64,000 bases of DNA from contig NZ_CP061038.1 of NCBI RefSeq assembly GCF_014490665.1, forward strand, positions 3,658,001 through 3,722,000. Direction: 5' to 3'. This document shows, one piece after another, positions 9,462 through 63,109 of the stretch. The first letter of the stretch is position 1, and every line of letters begins with the position of its first letter. A program made the translations under genes and the position numbers. The notes below the pieces were generated by a model. The model saw only the letters and a list, made by a program, of their open reading frames with translations. It did no database searches and was not told where the DNA came from. The stretch comes from Sphingomonas alpina (GTDB lineage: Bacteria > Pseudomonadota > Alphaproteobacteria > Sphingomonadales > Sphingomonadaceae).

Positions 9462-9782
9462 GACGCACCTCGATGAAATGATGGAAGATGAAGCAGATAA
9501 CGAGCCGGAGCCGCGCGAGTTGCCTGCCGGCGGACGATACGTCCCTGCAGGCGGGCTCATACGACGCTCTTCGTCAATATTCTTGCGGTCGCAGGATCAA
9601 TCAGCACCTGACTACTGCCAGCCACCTTCTCTTTGGTCAGGTCGGGAAAGGCGGGAACGATCCACCCCGGCCGGCGATTCAACCCGCCCGCCAGTCCTGA
9701 CAACGTCACGCACGACAGACCTCCATGTCCGTCGCGCTCTTTCTCATGGCGATTGATGCACCAGCGGCTGCGGAACCGGGGT

Positions 9783-9954
9783 CACCCCTGTTCCGTGGCA
9801 ATAACAGGGGTCGTCCACCCCTGTTATTGGCCGTTCCACCGCTGTTATCGACAACAGCGGTAAATGGCATCAAGCCCCTGATAAACAGTCATGAATTTAG
9901 GCCCAAAATCCAACTTAACAGGGGTGGGCTTTTTTTTCGCGAAATAACAGCGGT
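9783..9954 (+). repeat. Multi-hairpin intergenic element, copy 1
   Basis: Arms built on CTGTTA/TAACAG form a local stem ACCCCTGTT/AACAGGGGT (9784-9792 with 9803-9811), a hairpin ACCGCTGTT-ATCGAC-AACAGCGGT (9838-9861), and a long-range 12-bp match between CCACCCCTGTTA (9815-9826) and TAACAGGGGTGG (9916-9927). The last arm is followed by GC and eight T residues, like a terminator. A further arm ATAACAGCGGT lies at 9944-9954. The core AATCCAACTTAACAGGGG is repeated exactly in copy 4. The element fills most of the second half of the 539-bp gap 9462-10000. I see nothing in 9462-9782. Confidence 0.8.
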
Positions 9955-22983: not shown

Positions 22984-23110
22984 GGGGCAGATAACCGGCT
23001 TGAAACCGGCGATTCAATTGTGGCCGCGATCATGGGACAGAAACCGGACGGAGCGCTTGATGGTGCCCCATCCTGCTCTTTCTCATCGTCGCAAAAACCA
23101 ATGTCACAGG

Positions 23111-23293
23111 CTGGCTGTTATCGCCGGTTAGGCTGGCTGATACCTGGCTGTTATGCTGGCTGTTACCTGGCTGTTCTCGATAATCGCCAATTCCTCCACA
23201 AGTTCATGAAAACAAGCAGAAATATTGGGCCCAGCGTCCAACATAACAGCCAGCAAAAATAGTTTTCCGGAATTAACAGCCAGGAACAGCCAG
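23111..23293 (+). repeat. Multi-hairpin intergenic element, copy 2
   Basis: Four left arms CTGGCTGTT(A) (23111, 23144, 23156 and 23167), plus a degenerate CTGGCTGA (23133), face three right arms (T)AACAGCCAG (23244, 23274 and 23285). The conserved core appears as TCCAACATAACAGCCAG at 23237-23253. All arms use CTGG outside the invariant CTGTTA, unlike copies 1, 3 and 4, and the partners change to match. It lies in the 473-bp gap between the convergent ogt and Lrp-type genes. Confidence 0.75.
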
Positions 23294-36404: not shown

Positions 36405-38437
36405 TCACCGCTCCTTGATGGTGATGAAGCGCAGCGCCAGTGATGGATTCTGCGCGACCAGGTCGGCGAGCGGCGCGGCCAGCGGGCGATCGAAGGGATA
36501 GCCCATCGGCTTGGCGTCGGGATATTCGTCGGTCACCGCGCAGAAGCTCATCGAGCCGCATTGCCCCTGCTTGATCAGCGCGTCGTCCTTGGTCACCACC
36601 GCAAGCAGCGCGAAGCGCATCCCCGATTTGGTGCCCCGCGGATAGAGCAGGTGATAGGGCCAGCCGCATTCGCATGCCGCCGCGTCGGGATGGTCGTCGC
36701 CCTGCTGCTCGAAATGCAGGTCGCGCACGACATCGGGATTGGCGTGGAGCGCGGTGACCGGGCGGCGTACGAGGGTCGAATCGGTATCGGCGCGGGTCAG
36801 CACCTTCTCCTCGCCCGGCGCGATCGGCGCAGCGAACTTGTCGAGTTCGATCCACAGCCGGCGATCGTTGAGCGAGCCGTCCGCCACCCCGCCGACCGCA
36901 TGGGCCGGGCAAAGGAACAGCCGTACCGTCACCAGTTGTTCCACCGCCGCGGTCGAGCGCAGCCGGACCGCGAAGTGATAGGAGGGGTGCCACAGATAGG
37001 GATAGGTGAAGCGCGGCTGATCCTCGACCTGCTGGTCGGTGTTGAGCTGGAAGATGCCGTGACGCAGCTCGGTCTCGATCGTGTCGTGCAGCGTGACCTG
37101 GAGCGGCTGGCCATTGACCTGGCCGACCGTTTCGACACCTTGTGCCGCGTTGCGCGTAAAGCGTGAACCGCCGAGCAATGCGCCGGCAAGCTGGTCCACC
37201 GTCTCGCCACGGGCGGCCGCGGCATTGCGGAACCGCGCGCTGTCGAGGATCACCAGCCCGGCATCGTTGCCGCCGCCGAATACCACGTCCGGCGCGGCAG
37301 CGAAGTCGTTGGCCGGCAATTTTTCCTGATAGGCGAAGTTGATGTCGTCGACATGGCGATGCCAGCGCCAGAAGAACGGATCGCGGATCGCCGAGGCTGG
37401 ATTGTACATCACGCCGCCTTCGTAGCTCGCCAGGTCGGACAGAGCGGCGGTGAAGACATGGCCGAAGCCGTGATGGTTGCCGTAAAAGCTGTTGTACCCC
37501 GCGCCGCTGATGCTCTTGCCGCTGCTTTCATCGGCATGGCCAAGCGCGTCGCTGCCCGGCGCGCCGTCCAGCACCAGCGATGCGCCGCCCGGCACCGCCA
37601 GCTTGAGGTTGGCCGCGGCATCGCGCAGCCGGTCGCGGCGCTGTGCATGATCGGCCGGAGCATAATTGTTGATCAGGGCAAGCTGCGCCCATTTGCCGTT
37701 GGCGGGGCGCGGCAGATAGGTCACCCCGCCGATCGCCAGCCCGCCCGGATCATACCCGACGCCGATGCTCGCGGTATAATCATCGAACGCCTCGACCGGG
37801 TCGAGGCCGGCACCGAGCCGTTCGGCATCGTAACGCGCGAGCATCTGCTGATGCATGTAGAAGAACAGCTCGCCGTGGCGCGGTCGGATCGAGAAGCCCG
37901 GGCTGTCGAAGCGGACATAGACCAGATGCCAATGTTCATGATGTTCGTTCGCGAGCGGGTCTTCGCGGAACCAGTTGACCTTGTCCTCGTCCGCCGACCC
38001 GGTGGTGCCGCCAAGCGCAGGCAGCGTCCCGGTCCCCGTTCCCGCCAGCGGGCTGGTGGCATTGACCGTCATGCGCGACATGAGATTGGGAATGCGCACA
38101 TTGCGCGCGGCATGGTCATGGGTGAGGAACAGCTTGGCGGCGTGATCGACCAGCCCGTCGGGATAATTGCCGCGCAGCTCTGCGGCCAGCGCGAACGCCG
38201 CCGCCACCGCGTCATTGTCGCTGCCGTCGCCGGCAAGCGCCTCGGTCGCGGCCTGCGCCATACGGTCGGCGACCGCGATCGCGGCCTCCATATCCTCGGC
38301 GACAAAGACGGAGAAGGCGCGGCCGGTGGGCGGCGGCACGCCATCCCCGGCAGCGCCGCGAAGATCGAGTCCTGCGCGCTGCGCACGACCGGTGACGTGA
38401 AGAAGGCGTCTACGCCCCTCTGGATCGGTTCGCTCAT
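36405..38437 (-). CDS. Arthropod-hemocyanin/phenoloxidase-like type-3 copper protein (frameshifted)
   Basis: A protein of about 678 residues whose N-terminal 34 residues (MSEPIQRGVDAFFTSPVVRS...) lie in one frame and the rest in another. A single extra base in the CCCC run at 38345-38348 (plus strand) would join them as LPGDGVPPPTGRAF. The strong ribosome binding site AAGGGGG precedes the first frame. Numbered from the downstream GTG at 38339, CuA ligands would be His134, His138 and His163 (GELFFYMHQQMLARYD) and CuB His290, His294 and His327 (FWRWHRHVDD). This is the prophenoloxidase/hemocyanin pattern and not the ordinary bacterial tyrosinase one. Oxygen binding or phenol oxidation is inferred. 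Confidence 0.75.
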
Positions 38438-39003: not shown

Positions 39004-39180
39004 CATGCTGTTTCATGCTGTTATTCGGCGGAATTTTTTCACTGCTGTTAAGTTGGATTTTCGGCGGAAAATTCCTGTTTTTGTTCAATGGATTGATACC
39101 CGCCGCTGCTGTTATTGAATAACAGCAGCGGAACAGCAGATAACAGCATGGGAAACAGCGCTGTTCGCGGCGGAACAGCA
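39004..39180 (-). repeat. Multi-hairpin intergenic element, copy 3 (inverted)
   Basis: Read on the minus strand, it has the same order as the other copies. A 29-bp palindrome (arms CCGCTGCTGTTATT, 39103-39131) precedes the AT-rich spacer and the core AAAATCCAACTTAACAGCAG (reverse complement of 39042-39061). CATGCTGTTA (39014-39023) pairs perfectly with TAACAGCATG (39141-39150). AACAGCGCTGTT at 39154-39165 is a perfect 12-bp palindrome. It lies in the 732-bp gap 38790-39521, which also holds repeat copy B and otherwise nothing I can support. Confidence 0.75.
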
Positions 39181-39405
39181 ACGGGTTTTTGGACATTGAG
39201 AGTGATCGTCGACGGGCGAGTTCACCCGTTTCCGGCGAGCAGATCGCCGGTGGTTCAGTTGTTTCCACGGTGGAAAGAGCGCGAGCGCGGCCGATCAGGG
39301 TCGCACTCGCACGTGGTGATGGCATGACCCCGCGTAACATTGAATCGGTGGCGAACGAAAATGGCATCCCTGCAGAGTTGGGTTACAGCGGGACAAGCCC
39401 TTCCC

Positions 39406-59184: not shown

Positions 59185-61290
59185 ATGACCTACGCGGCCG
59201 CCATGACCAGGACGAAAGCGACGGTTCCCGCCGTCGGATACGCGCCGGCGTGGAATCCCGAACTCGACCCGCTGGCATCCGCGATCCGCGAGATGGCCTG
59301 CAGCTTCAGGCCATCCGGGGTGCTGTTTGCCGCTGCACAGACGGGCCTCTTCGCCGCGCTCATGCCGGACGGCTTGACCGCGGTCGAGGCCGGTCGCGCC
59401 ACTGGCATGGCCGAAACGTCCGCCAGATTGTTGCTGAATGGACTCGTCTCGCTCAACCTCGCCGTGCATGACGGCGTGCAGTATCGGCCACTGCCGGCAC
59501 TGAACGACGCGGTGCTCATGCGCGGATTCCTGGCCGAAGCCCGGGCGCATCACCGCGAGGCCGCCGCCTGGCTGCGGACTGCGGCATTTCTGCGTGGGCT
59601 GGAGGATGTGCCGATCGCGTATCGGCGCGAATTGCTCGACGGGCGGATGGCGGAACGCCCGGGAATCCGGGCGATGAATCGTCAGCTCGCGCAAGTCGTG
59701 CTCGATCGGATGGGCGCATTGGCGTCACAAGCGCGACGCGTGCTCGACATTGGCGGCGGCGATGGCGATTTCTGCGAGGCGCTGCTGGCGTGCAATGCCG
59801 ATGCCCGGGTCGAGATACTCGACCTGGCCGGCGGGATCGGCATGTGCCAGCGTTTCGCGACGGGTCCCGACGCCGACCGGGTGACGCTGCGCATCGACGA
59901 CGCGCGCACCGCGACGACCGACACGCGCTACGACCTGATCATCATCAACGAGCTGCTCGAACTGTTCCCTCAGGCCGAAAAGCGGGCGATCGTCGAGCGG
60001 GCGGTCGCCGCGCTGGCGCCTGGCGGGCGGGTGGCAATCGTCAAGTTCGCGCTCGACCGCGATGGCGTCCAACCCGCGGGCGCGGCGCTTTTCTCGGTGC
60101 GGATGACGCTCAAATCGGACGGTGCCTATCTGGAAAGCGACGACGAGGTCGCCGCGCTGCTGAGCGCGTGCGGCTGCGACGCGATCGAGCGGCTCGACAT
60201 CGCCGGGATCAAGTCGGTGATACTGGGCAGGCGGCCGGGCGCCGCGGGCATTTTGCGGGAGAGAGACGGCATGAGCGAGACACGGGCGACGGCGGGCGAG
60301 CTCGCGCTATGGCGTGAACTGATATCGGTGGCGACATCGTTCCGCCTTGCCGGGGTGTTGTTTGCCGCCGCCGAACTCGACCTGTTCAGCCATATCCCGC
60401 CACAGGGCGGCAGCGCGGCGGAGATCGCCGAACGGATCGGTACCAGCACGGTCGGCGCCGAGGTGCTGATGAATGCGCTCGCCGCGATCGGCATCATCCA
60501 CAAGGAGGCCGGCTGTTTCGCGATTCATGACGATGTCCGCGCGTTGCTCGCCCGCGGCCCGCGCTGCATCCTGCCCGAAATCCTGCAGTTCCGCGCCGAG
60601 AACGAAATCTGGCTCCAACTCGGCGACATAATGCGCTCGCCCGGCGCGCGGCCCGAGGCGGCACGGATCATGGAGAGCGCCCATCTGCCCGAATATCTGA
60701 CCTCGGTCGCGATGGCCAACCAGCCCGCCGCCGACCTGCTGGTGGAACGGATTGCTCCTTTGCTGGAACACGCGCGGCGCGTGCTCGATCTGGGCGGGGG
60801 AAGCGGCACCTTTTCGGATCGCCTGCTATCGGTGGCGCCGCAGCTCCAGGTCACCCTGTTCGACCGCCCCGAGGTGATCGGCCAGAATGGCCCGCGCTTC
60901 GTGGACCAGATTCGAGCGGGGCAGATCGTGCTGGAGAGCGGCGACGCGCTCGACTTCACGCTGCCGGAGCGCTTCGACCTGGTGCTGGTGAGCGACCTGC
61001 TGCACTATTTCTCGCGCGACGAGAAACGCCGCATCCTCGCCAATGCCCGTCAGGCGCTCGCCCCCGGCGGCACGCTGATCATCAGCAAGTTCCGGCTTGA
61101 CGAGTCGGGCGCATCCCCCCCTGCGGCCGCGCTGATTTCGCTCAAGGTGCATCTGCAGCGGCCCGAGGCCTATCTGGAAGAGGATCGCGAGGCTGCGGCG
61201 CTGCTGCGCGAGCTGGGTCTCGAGGCGGTGACAGTCGAGACGCTCGACGAAGCAAAGTCGGTGGTGCGCGGCCGGGCGGCGCTGTCATGA
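59185..61290 (+). CDS. Fused tandem SAM methyltransferase
   Basis: A 701-residue protein made of two O-methyltransferase modules of similar plan, each with an N-terminal helical/winged-helix dimerisation part and a SAM fold. SAM motif I is VLDIGGGDGDF (residues 186-196) in the first and VLDLGGGSGTF in the second. The linker contains an internal ATG at 60271 (Met363) preceded by GGGAGAGAG, so the second half may also be made separately. The gene looks like a fusion of two adjacent genes. The substrate is unknown. Confidence 0.75.
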   Translation: MTYAAAMTRTKATVPAVGYAPAWNPELDPLASAIREMACSFRPSGVLFAAAQTGLFAALMPDGLTAVEAGRATGMAETSARLLLNGLVSLNLAVHDGVQYRPLPALNDAVLMRGFLAEARAHHREAAAWLRTAAFLRGLEDVPIAYRRELLDGRMAERPGIRAMNRQLAQVVLDRMGALASQARRVLDIGGGDGDFCEALLACNADARVEILDLAGGIGMCQRFATGPDADRVTLRIDDARTATTDTRYDLIIINELLELFPQAEKRAIVERAVAALAPGGRVAIVKFALDRDGVQPAGAALFSVRMTLKSDGAYLESDDEVAALLSACGCDAIERLDIAGIKSVILGRRPGAAGILRERDGMSETRATAGELALWRELISVATSFRLAGVLFAAAELDLFSHIPPQGGSAAEIAERIGTSTVGAEVLMNALAAIGIIHKEAGCFAIHDDVRALLARGPRCILPEILQFRAENEIWLQLGDIMRSPGARPEAARIMESAHLPEYLTSVAMANQPAADLLVERIAPLLEHARRVLDLGGGSGTFSDRLLSVAPQLQVTLFDRPEVIGQNGPRFVDQIRAGQIVLESGDALDFTLPERFDLVLVSDLLHYFSRDEKRRILANARQALAPGGTLIISKFRLDESGASPPAAALISLKVHLQRPEAYLEEDREAAALLRELGLEAVTVETLDEAKSVVRGRAALS

Positions 61291-61738: not shown

Positions 61739-62737
61739 GTGGCGGACCAGCCCGATGCGCAAGACCTGTCGGCCGCGCTCGACCGCCTGCTCGCCGATGC
61801 CGAGATCTGGCGACCGCGCATCCTGATGTCGGCGGTGCAGCTCGACATTTTTTCTGCGATCGAGGCCGGGCCGGCGCTCGCGGCCGATATCGCCGCGCGG
61901 CTGGGAACCGCGCCGGAAGCGACCGCCCGGCTGCTGAGCGCATTGCACGAGATGGGCTATCTCGAGCTGACCGGGACCGGATACCGCAACGCGCCGTCGG
62001 CCTCGGCCTTTCTGGTCGGCGGCTCGCCGCATTATATCGGCTCCTGGTTCAAGCTGCACGATAGCGACTGGCCCGCCTGGGGCGGACTGACCCAATCGAT
62101 CCGCGACGGGCACGGTCCGGCGATGGGGAGCCTCTTCCACGATGCCACGCGACTGCGCACCTTGTTGCTTGCCGCCCATGAGCGGGCGCTGCTGTTCCAT
62201 CTCGCGCCCACTGTCGCGACAGTCGACCTGAGGGATGCGCGCAGCCTGCTGGATCTCGGCGGCGGCGCGGGAAGCTATTCGCTCGGTTTCTGCGAGGCCA
62301 ATCCCGAACTTGTCTGCACGATCTTCGACCTGCCCGACGCGATCGGGATCGCTCGCGAGATCGTCTCGCCTTATCCGATGCGGGATCGGATCCGGCTGGC
62401 GTGCGGCGATTTCACTCGCGACGACCTGGGCGGCCCCTATGACGCGGTGTTCCTCAGCAACGTGCTCCACGGCGAGAGCCCCTCCGCCGCGCTTGCCCTG
62501 CTGCGCCGCATCCGCGCGGCGCTGGGCCCGGGCGGGCAGGTGATCATCCGCGACTCCTTCCTCGACGAGGACGGCACCAACAGCCGCGGAGGCGCGGTGT
62601 TCGGCATGACGCTGATGATCGAGACGCTCGAAGGCCGGACGCACCGGCTGATTGAGGTGCGGGATATGCTGGGCGAGGCTGGATTCGGGAGCATCGAACA
62701 GCCCAATGGGCAGTTCCTGATCGGGCGTGCGGGCTAG
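61739..62737 (+). CDS. O-methyltransferase, dimerising type
   Basis: A 332-residue methyltransferase that starts at GTG, two bases after the VOC stop. The N-terminal winged-helix dimerisation region (ILMSAVQLDIFSAIEAGPAL, then AADIAARLGTAPEATARLLS) precedes SAM motif I LLDLGGGAGSYSLGF. It is of the same branch as the fused pair upstream, so the operon encodes three related modules. The substrate is unknown. Confidence 0.8.
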   Translation: MADQPDAQDLSAALDRLLADAEIWRPRILMSAVQLDIFSAIEAGPALAADIAARLGTAPEATARLLSALHEMGYLELTGTGYRNAPSASAFLVGGSPHYIGSWFKLHDSDWPAWGGLTQSIRDGHGPAMGSLFHDATRLRTLLLAAHERALLFHLAPTVATVDLRDARSLLDLGGGAGSYSLGFCEANPELVCTIFDLPDAIGIAREIVSPYPMRDRIRLACGDFTRDDLGGPYDAVFLSNVLHGESPSAALALLRRIRAALGPGGQVIIRDSFLDEDGTNSRGGAVFGMTLMIETLEGRTHRLIEVRDMLGEAGFGSIEQPNGQFLIGRAG

Positions 62738-62875
62738 AGCGGATCGGCGCCGGGCACCGTGGTCGGCGGCACCGATTCAACCCTGCTGCCGGTCATGCCA
62801 GCGTGGCGGCGGACGGGAAGCCAGCCGGTGACCCGCCCCGCTCTTTGACATGACTGGAATATACAGGGCGTTTTG

Positions 62876-63042
62876 CGACCGCTGTTCGGCAGGAACAGCG
62901 GTGAGCCGACCGCTGTTCCTGCGCTTCCCACCGCTGTTATGGATAACAGCGGTGGCAGCACTCAACAAATTGAAAACAGGCAGAAAATCTACCGCCAAAA
63001 TCCAACTTAACAGGGGTGGCTTTTTTTATTCGTGGGAACAGC
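62876..63042 (+). repeat. Multi-hairpin intergenic element, copy 4
   Basis: Contains the hairpin ACCGCTGTTC-N5-GAACAGCGGT (62876-62900), a lone arm ACCGCTGTT (62907-62915) and a 28-bp palindrome with arms CCACCGCTGTTAT (62926-62953). The core AATCCAACTTAACAGGGG (within 62995-63017) is identical to copy 1 and is again followed by GTGGC and seven T residues. A final GAACAGCGG lies at 63034-63042. It occupies the 372-bp gap between a methyltransferase and a convergent VOC gene; I see nothing else in that gap. Confidence 0.8.
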
Positions 63043-63109
63043 GGAAAATCGCCCCCAAACGACCGCGACTCGCATCGCCACCGCTGGCCGGCCGGATGTC
63101 GATCGAGCC

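Follow-up and report, generated by a model that had tools for sequence, protein, structure and literature searches.

Interspersed palindromic repeats have long been known; the upkeep of their structure while the sequence drifts is rarely visible. The described family most similar in outline to the one reported here appears to be the CIR of Caulobacter, on which Chen and Shapiro 2003 is said to be the paper. CIR elements (CcrM-associated, spelled "CerM" in PMC2229807; Caulobacter, Brucella) are alpha-proteobacterial and intergenic, measure about 110 bp, consist of several stem-loops with a linker, carry GANTC at the terminal loop and are described as highly conserved between alpha-proteobacteria (PMC2229807). 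The ERIC/IRU and NEMIS (Correia) elements are 100–200 bp long, mostly intergenic and strongly folding, possess terminal inverted repeats and target-site duplications, and are reported to be transcribed and to act on the mRNA of their neighbours (PMC2229807). REP/BIME/REPIN sequences are high-copy extragenic palindromes with regularly spaced hairpins and GTAG/CGTC tags (PMC3733652). A further system of relevance is the boxA site bound by NusB/NusE, with the published gamma-proteobacterial consensus GYTCTTTAANA, which leads rRNA and some mRNAs (PMC5725501).

The window, i.e., the whole stretch of DNA analysed here (64,000 nt of Sphingomonas alpina, NZ_CP061038.1, 3,658,001–3,722,000), contains four copies of an element family which, by the tests made, seems to be no member of CIR, ERIC or NEMIS. 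With CIR it shares the alpha-proteobacterial host, the intergenic position, the stem-loops with linker and a conserved GANTC, here the GATTC of a GATTCAA heptamer present in 70 of the 78 elements whose core is exact. In contrast to CIR, however, this GATTC lies in a hairpin loop in only 4 of 79 modules (minimum-energy folds), the unit is about 280 bp long, a boxA-like site and differing arm types are added, and the carriers are 9 of 295 genomes of one genus; by its description, the family is set apart from CIR. It resembles ERIC/IRU and NEMIS in being mostly intergenic and strongly folding, but neither terminal inverted repeats nor target-site duplications were seen in the alignments read, and the portion of PMC2229807 used describes neither boxA nor arm switching for those elements. 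The ERIC primers ERIC1R and ERIC2 were identical to the four copies at 12 and 13 of 22 positions, against 13.1 and 13.0 for shuffled primers. It is likewise a set of extragenic palindromes with spaced hairpins as in REP/BIME/REPIN, yet each member is a multi-module unit, and the GTAG/CGTC tags showed no enrichment next to terminal hairpins (4 of 73 against 9.9 expected). Membership in an Rfam family was rejected: Rfam 15 returned no match in the window and, for six loci, only six matches at E ≤ 1, none reaching its gathering threshold. No paper was recognised in the PMC literature as describing the family, by which absence from print is not shown. The earlier note on this DNA knew of no named family with such a structure and would have counted a match to Rfam or REP against its novelty; comparison with Rfam, the REP tags, the ERIC primers and the loop position in CIR brought none to light.

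The family of intergenic hairpin elements is certainly real, and it is larger than first noted. In the own genome (S. alpina, 5,197,460 bp), a covariance model returned 141 matches at E ≤ 0.1, and 114 of these had E ≤ 1e-4, a lower bound because 150 of 682 first-look candidates were scored. The model comprises the terminal hairpin, the spacer, the core and the following stretch, and was built on 47 rows (40 from the own genome, 7 from the relatives G033, G043 and G084; G-numbers denote genomes of the relatives set and L-numbers fetched loci). These rows were hand-picked to cover the types among 75 elements with a local hairpin (87 examined), so that pairing of the hexamers in the model is partly due to selection of rows, while the flanks were not selected. 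All four copies indicated by the earlier note were found at their places on inspection of the window sequence and recovered by the model, copy 2 (E 7.5e-16) without having been in the training set. Moreover, the own genome contains 83 cores of the AAATCCAACTTAACAG type (pattern AAAATCCAACTTAACAG with at most 3 mismatches), compared with 3 for the reversed pattern. The hexamer CTGTTA/TAACAG is present 19 times in the window against 4.29 ± 2.30 after shuffling (none of 100 shuffles reached 19), and 18 of the 19 fall inside the four copies. The hexamer had been called invariant in every arm, which proved too strong: its full form is found in 18 of the 34 CTGTT/AACAG words of the four copies, spacer words included, and across the genus it is changed on both sides in two genomes (G310 and G081). 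That the letters outside it are specific to the copy was borne out by the comparison of flank letters.

A typical unit of about 280 bp starts with a 5′ module, followed by the arm array, an A-rich spacer, the core AAATCCAACWTAACAG and usually further arms. The array and core delimited in the earlier note were thus only the 3′ part, from which each copy extends 100 to 166 nt further in the 5′ direction (Table 1). Sense arms have the pattern xxxxCTGTTA and antisense arms TAACAGyyyy; arrays in the own genome hold 2 to 12 sense arms xxxxCTGTT(A), usually with one or two local hairpins, and the terminal local hairpin is absent, by our pattern, in 12 of 87 parsed elements, copy 2 among them. By their flank letters, these 87 elements (79 from the own genome and 8 from G033, G043 and G084) were assigned to the types ACC (36), CTGG (20), CATG (14), GCCC (11) and CTCC (2), with 4 unassigned. 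The spacer between array and core carries CAAG, TGAAAA and AAATT, and the core is followed by an A or T tract and then by none to about four antisense arms. In the 47-row alignment, a T tract directly 3′ of the core is confined to ACC-type rows, the other types being A-rich there. Of the 36 ACC-type elements parsed, 34 have ACCC next to the core, irrespective of the partner arms. The 12-bp stem CCACCCCTGTTA/TAACAGGGGTGG before the T8 tract, previously pointed out for copy 1, is indeed present in that copy; as a family feature, the T8-closed stem was rejected, since the T tract belongs to the ACC type only and the core-side ACCC ignores its partners. A local expansion was observed at L066 (own genome 4399100-4401800), with at least twelve tandem units of the CTGGCTGTTAG type, mostly of 11 bp.

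Table 1. Window positions of the four copies and their parts.
Feature	Position	Strand	Remark
Copy 1, whole element (ACCC/ACCG arm type)	9676..9954	+	
Copy 1, GATTCAA, start of 5′ module	9676..9682	+	
Copy 1, boxA-like GCTCTTT	9736..9742	+	
Copy 1, first local hairpin	9784..9811	+	
Copy 1, terminal local hairpin	9838..9861	+	
Copy 1, core AAATCCAACTTAACAG	9906..9921	+	
Copy 1, T8 tract (ACC type)	9930..9937	+	
Copy 1, trailing arm	9945..9954	+	
Copy 2, whole element (CTGG arm type)	23011..23293	+	without local terminal hairpin
Copy 2, GATTCAA	23011..23017	+	
Copy 2, boxA-like GCTCTTT	23075..23081	+	
Copy 2, array of CTGGCTGTTA arms	23111..23175	+	
Copy 2, core TCCAACATAACAG	23237..23249	+	
Copy 2, trailing arms	23274..23293	+	
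Copy 3, whole element (CATG-like arm type)	39004..39346	-	
Copy 3, GATTCAA	39340..39346	-	begins at 39346
Copy 3, boxA-like GCTCTTT	39274..39280	-	begins at 39280
Copy 3, terminal local hairpin	39105..39129	-	
Copy 3, core TCCAACTTAACAG	39045..39057	-	
Copy 3, trailing arms	39004..39023	-	
Copy 4, whole element (ACCG arms)	62774..63045	+	ACCC at core
Copy 4, GATTCAA	62774..62780	+	
Copy 4, boxA-like GCTCTTT	62840..62846	+	
Copy 4, terminal local hairpin	62930..62953	+	
Copy 4, core TCCAACTTAACAG	63001..63013	+	
Copy 4, trailing arm	63037..63045	+	

The rRNA boxA of alpha-proteobacteria is probably similar to that of gamma-proteobacteria, and CRISPR arrays are also under Nus-factor antitermination. 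In the 5′ module of the family, GATTCAA-N15-TGNCA is followed, about 66 nt from GATTCAA, by a boxA-like GCTCTTTNNCAT, whose GCTCTTT is found in 68 of the 78 exact-core elements. The family's GCTCTTTSACA fits the gamma-proteobacterial GYTCTTTAANA (PMC5725501) at 10 of 11 positions and GCTCTTTCTCA at 9 of 11; neither is a full match. The ninth boxA-like position is an A in 37 of 67 anchored elements, and GCTCTTTSACAT occurs 56 times in the own genome. A search of the own genome for its SSU rRNA, meant as a yardstick for boxA, found none. Predicted folds often show a hairpin in the interval from GATTCAA to boxA; the leader alignment (48 of 64 elements) lends it no covariation support. GATTCAA-N15-TGNCA has 62 matches in the own genome and none with the reversed pattern; as a general promoter of the genome it was rejected, since 58 of them are located no more than about 500 nt from a model match, leaving 4 elsewhere. 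The module is also met on its own, without recognisable core behind it in 15 of 81 distinct modules read in the own genome and in 8 of 10 examined in G033. At L194 (own genome 3256500-3261500), two 5′ modules (GATTCA, about 63 nt, GCTCTTTGACAT) precede two similar hydrophobic small ORFs with no Pfam match. A second type of 5′ region was seen at L010, L073, L091 and L205, with a far-upstream GATTCTA or GATTCAA and a TTGAATC adjoining the arms, and without the boxA-like word.

The matching of sense and antisense flanks within an element amounts to 3.05 of 4 letters, compared with 1.61 ± 0.12 when the antisense sets were shuffled among elements, which by itself could reflect descent of subfamilies. 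A sharper test was made on the ACC type, a mix of ACCC and ACCG, by comparing the flank letter beside the CTGTT word. Of 48 partner pairs in local hairpins, 36 agreed (odds ratio 7.2, Fisher p = 0.004); with the test restricted to the terminal hairpin, agreement was 27 of 34 (p = 0.002). Between the remaining arms of these elements, by contrast, there was no association (odds ratio 0.86, p = 0.75). In the 47-row alignment of the terminal hairpin, three of five measures of covariation exceeded those of shuffled rows: paired cells (86.0% against 71.0 ± 1.2), cells changed on both sides (91 against 36.0 ± 4.4) and the covariation score (0.371 against 0.117 ± 0.015, a kind of score that relatedness of rows can inflate). 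The other two, double-change pairs (6 against 6.6) and further pair types (20 against 19.5), were not above the shuffles. Long-range partners had no partner-specific covariation, with 3.21 identical letters of 4 in nested and 3.26 in non-nested pairs; a nested long-range ladder backed by covariation is therefore without support, such a ladder being predicted by thermodynamics alone. As there is no long-range preference and the core-side ACCC is nearly constant, pair-level covariation is demonstrated only in the local hairpins. The earlier proposal that partner arms change together so as to stay complementary is thus supported for local hairpins and not for long-range pairs.

Concerted change in protein-binding sites might give arms of this kind as well, if they were half-sites of a DNA-binding (nucleoid- or chromosome-organising) protein and the array a multi-site platform. 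The repeat of about 10–12 bp, which in the tandem units of L066 comes near one helical turn, and the CTG word kept in arms of all types read are consistent with this. We nevertheless consider it improbable, since the loop between the putative half-sites varies from about 3 to 9, the co-variation is specific to local hairpin partners rather than common to all arms, and there are five arm types in the own genome and a CTGTT to CTGCT replacement in G310/G081 elements.

When the stretch between boxA and the point 62 nt beyond the start of the core was folded, z was < -2 against dinucleotide shuffles in 65 of 68 own-genome elements (mean z -5.0), and 193 of 281 CTGTT words were paired with an AACAG word in the minimum-energy folds. 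The minus strand folds slightly better, by a mean of 3.7 kcal/mol. In 107 hairpins, the five inner positions hold 17 G.T and 23 A.C mismatches; these show no RNA-strand signature, and there is hence no sign of which strand, if any, is under selection as RNA. Selection on pairing, as suggested earlier, is supported for the local hairpins by the flank-letter test, the covariation score of the terminal hairpin and the arm-type differences between orthologous loci (below), with RNA not favoured over single-stranded DNA.

Our preferred reading, held tentatively with a probability of roughly 0.45, is that of a transcribed, structure-selected, two-module interspersed element with a promoter-like, boxA-type leader, inherited mainly vertically. 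The 5′ module, with its rigid 15-base gap between GATTCAA and TGNCA, would most likely start transcription, and the boxA-like site would most likely load the NusB/NusE antitermination complex, so that RNA polymerase could cross a long untranslated region and escape termination by Rho. The arms of the array, complementary to one another, are predicted to fold into several hairpins around the A-rich spacer and the conserved core. Selection would keep the arms complementary while their letters drift, and it would thus be the structure, rather than a fixed DNA word, that is recognised. The element would probably act as a structured transcript lying between the ends of genes and influence how neighbouring transcripts are processed or how stable they are, as described for ERIC and NEMIS. 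What the analysis establishes is the family with its modules and distribution, the matching of arms, the covariation in local hairpins, the differing arms at fixed loci and a strong predicted fold; the promoter, the boxA function, transcription and an effect on neighbours are inferred. Should the 5′ module prove a promoter with a boxA leader, Nus-factor antitermination would extend from rRNA and some mRNAs, where PMC5725501 places it, to a dispersed non-coding family. Against this reading stand the absence of an RNA-strand signature, the slightly better fold of the minus strand, the two covariation measures at shuffle level, the leader hairpin unsupported by covariation, the incomplete match to a gamma-proteobacterial boxA consensus, the modules without core and the inverted cores described below. 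A more far-reaching variant, which we hold to be rather unlikely, sees in the elements about a hundred non-coding RNA genes with their own promoter GATTCAA-N15-TGNCA and a ribosomal-type antitermination leader, whose arms switch wholesale to a new complementary word and form several incompatible pairing "alphabets" on one chromosome. Pairing in trans would then be possible only between copies of the same arm type.

Change at fixed loci was followed at two depths. The sister-species set included 22 G211 loci (31 matches listed) and 26 G212 loci (35 listed). Each of the 22 G211 loci examined has, within the fetched set, a G212 ortholog that carries the element, and four G212 loci (L147, L168, L183, L184) have no G211 partner in the fetched set. 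Pairs were aligned at 80% identity or more, by which 1 of 22 was dropped (identity 0.73); in the remaining 21, motif words differ by 4.4% compared with 7.3% for the rest (p = 0.0009, neighbouring positions not being independent). In the deeper lineages, the address is kept and the arm types differ. Ten orthologous groups were present among the fetched loci, which are not a random sample (L013/L101 being matched on one flank only); nine were parsable in the own genome plus one or more of the others, and the arm type differs in eight of these. One group has CTGG in the own genome and CATG in G033 and G234, with a 5′ module that aligns across all three, and another has ACC in the own genome and CATG-like arms in the same two relatives. 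Further pairs are GCCC versus CATG-like, CTGG versus ACCG/TCCG, ACC versus TCCC, CTGG versus TCCG and CTGG versus TGCC/CGCC, and the group upstream of mutS has CATG-like arms in the own genome, CAC-ending arms in G234 and ACCG/TCCG in G211. The ninth group (L017/L187) has CATG in both. Moreover, the word that is constant in the own genome has itself been replaced in G310 and G081: four loci there (L406, L399, L408, L417) contain no CTGTT/AACAG but CTGCT together with AGCAG within 290 nt after the module, in hairpins such as CTCCCCTGCT/AGCAGGGGAG, and other elements of these genomes mix both words. The 21 modules read in G310/G081 are followed by an inverted core in 4 cases and by no recognisable core in 17.

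The replacement of whole arm sets at one address makes orthologous copies a natural experiment on structure selection versus concerted mutation. Template switching where there are palindromes, together with slippage or gene conversion among the repeats, might homogenise the arms and yield complementarity as a mutational by-product, in the absence of structure selection. The tandem expansion in L066, the uniform homogeneity within elements with no preference for nested partners and the mostly discrete arm types could be adduced for this. The explanation appears highly improbable given that, between G211 and G212, motif words diverge more slowly than the remaining sequence, and that the 5′ module and the array are confined, among the 295 genomes, to the 9 carriers, each of which has both.

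The search of relatives with a covariance model, as proposed in the earlier note, located the family in those 9 of 295 genus genomes (array model, strict filters), and the 5′ module, as a separate exact pattern, was found in the same 9, with none in any reversed control. Matches of the 5′ module number 91 in the own genome, 54 in G234, 25 in G033, 13 in G212, 11 in G310, 10 each in G211 and G081, 9 in G043 and 6 in G084; model matches at E ≤ 0.01 number 9 in G033, 31 in G211, 35 in G212 and 74 in G234. In a sample of the order (396 genomes), the array model matched the own genome only (strict filters). The exact core word TCCAACWTAACAG occurs in 11 of 150 relatives searched; seven core-word loci outside the carriers (L085–L089, L092, L096) were read and are not elements. 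A MutS tree of 30 fragments, the best 30 of 285 matched genomes, placed seven carriers in two supported clades, {G033,(G000,G234)} and {G043,G084,(G211,G212)}, with 2 changes of the carrier label (0 of 500 shuffles as low); G310 and G081 had no MutS match and are unplaced. Spread by plasmids or phages found no support: copy 4 had no match in plasmid and phage records, and among 24 viral contigs containing the core word the model had a single weak match (E 0.0024), taken as chance.

The main rival to the transcribed element, with which it is compatible, is a non-autonomous mobile or REPIN-like DNA whose hairpins, in single-stranded form, would be the target of a recombinase (HUH-type or other) supplied in trans, any transcription being incidental. 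The match number varies widely among carriers (from 9 in G033 to 74 in G234 at the above threshold, and at least 114 in the own genome at E ≤ 1e-4), cores are inverted relative to the 5′ module in the 4 G310/G081 cases, mismatches show no strand asymmetry, and close same-strand pairs exist in G234. At the AsnC locus of copy 2, furthermore, the own genome has the element, G234 a 142-bp intergenic stretch without it and G033 a 5′ module without arms. We judge such mobility unlikely on balance, given the full orthology of the fetched G211 loci in G212 (21 aligning at the required identity), the unenriched REP tags and the lack of plasmid or phage matches to copy 4. Terminal inverted repeats and target-site duplications, as in MITEs (NEMIS, RUP, ERIC), were not seen by eye in the alignments read, nor was a precise empty site, the flanks of the one element-less locus being too different for an exact one. 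In G234 (Sphingomonas sp. ERG5), seven pairs of same-strand model matches lie 187–252 bp apart (C22:142069-142410, C67:45900-46277, C60:259601-259933, C3:13340-13672, C69:39182-39502, C1:308414-308800, C84:60489-60865); at the loci read (L133, L405), the core of the upstream member is altered. Another intergenic inverted repeat, possibly of a different family, was observed at L388 (the AsnC locus of G234, GTTTCTCGACTTCG type) and L061 (TTCGACAAGCTCAGCACGAACGGG).

The elements are intergenic as judged with our own codon-score gene caller, and the neighbours of 82 of them form 36 convergent, 38 co-directional and 8 divergent gene pairs. The flanking gene points at the element on the left in 53 and on the right in 57 of the 82 cases. 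This excess of convergent flanks (p = 0.0002 against 25%; within the window, convergence is seen in 10 of the 54 pairs of adjacent genes) and the T tract of the ACC type would suit bidirectional transcription terminators or insulators between convergent genes. Such a function seems quite improbable for the family, as the other arm types have A-rich tracts after the core, Rho termination would be opposed by the boxA-like signal, and the divergent cases include one upstream of mutS.

A function shared by the neighbours found no support: among ten window proteins encoded at or close to the copies, 8 have Pfam matches, to unrelated functions, and 2 have none. The product of 36405-38339 (minus strand of the window) is a protein of 644 aa that matches the hemocyanin domains, both the middle (E 7.4e-32) and the C-terminal one (E 4.4e-27), which to our knowledge is unusual in a bacterium. 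A 701-aa protein with two methyltransferase stretches is encoded at 59185-61290 (plus strand), with a further O-methyltransferase nearby (61739-62737).
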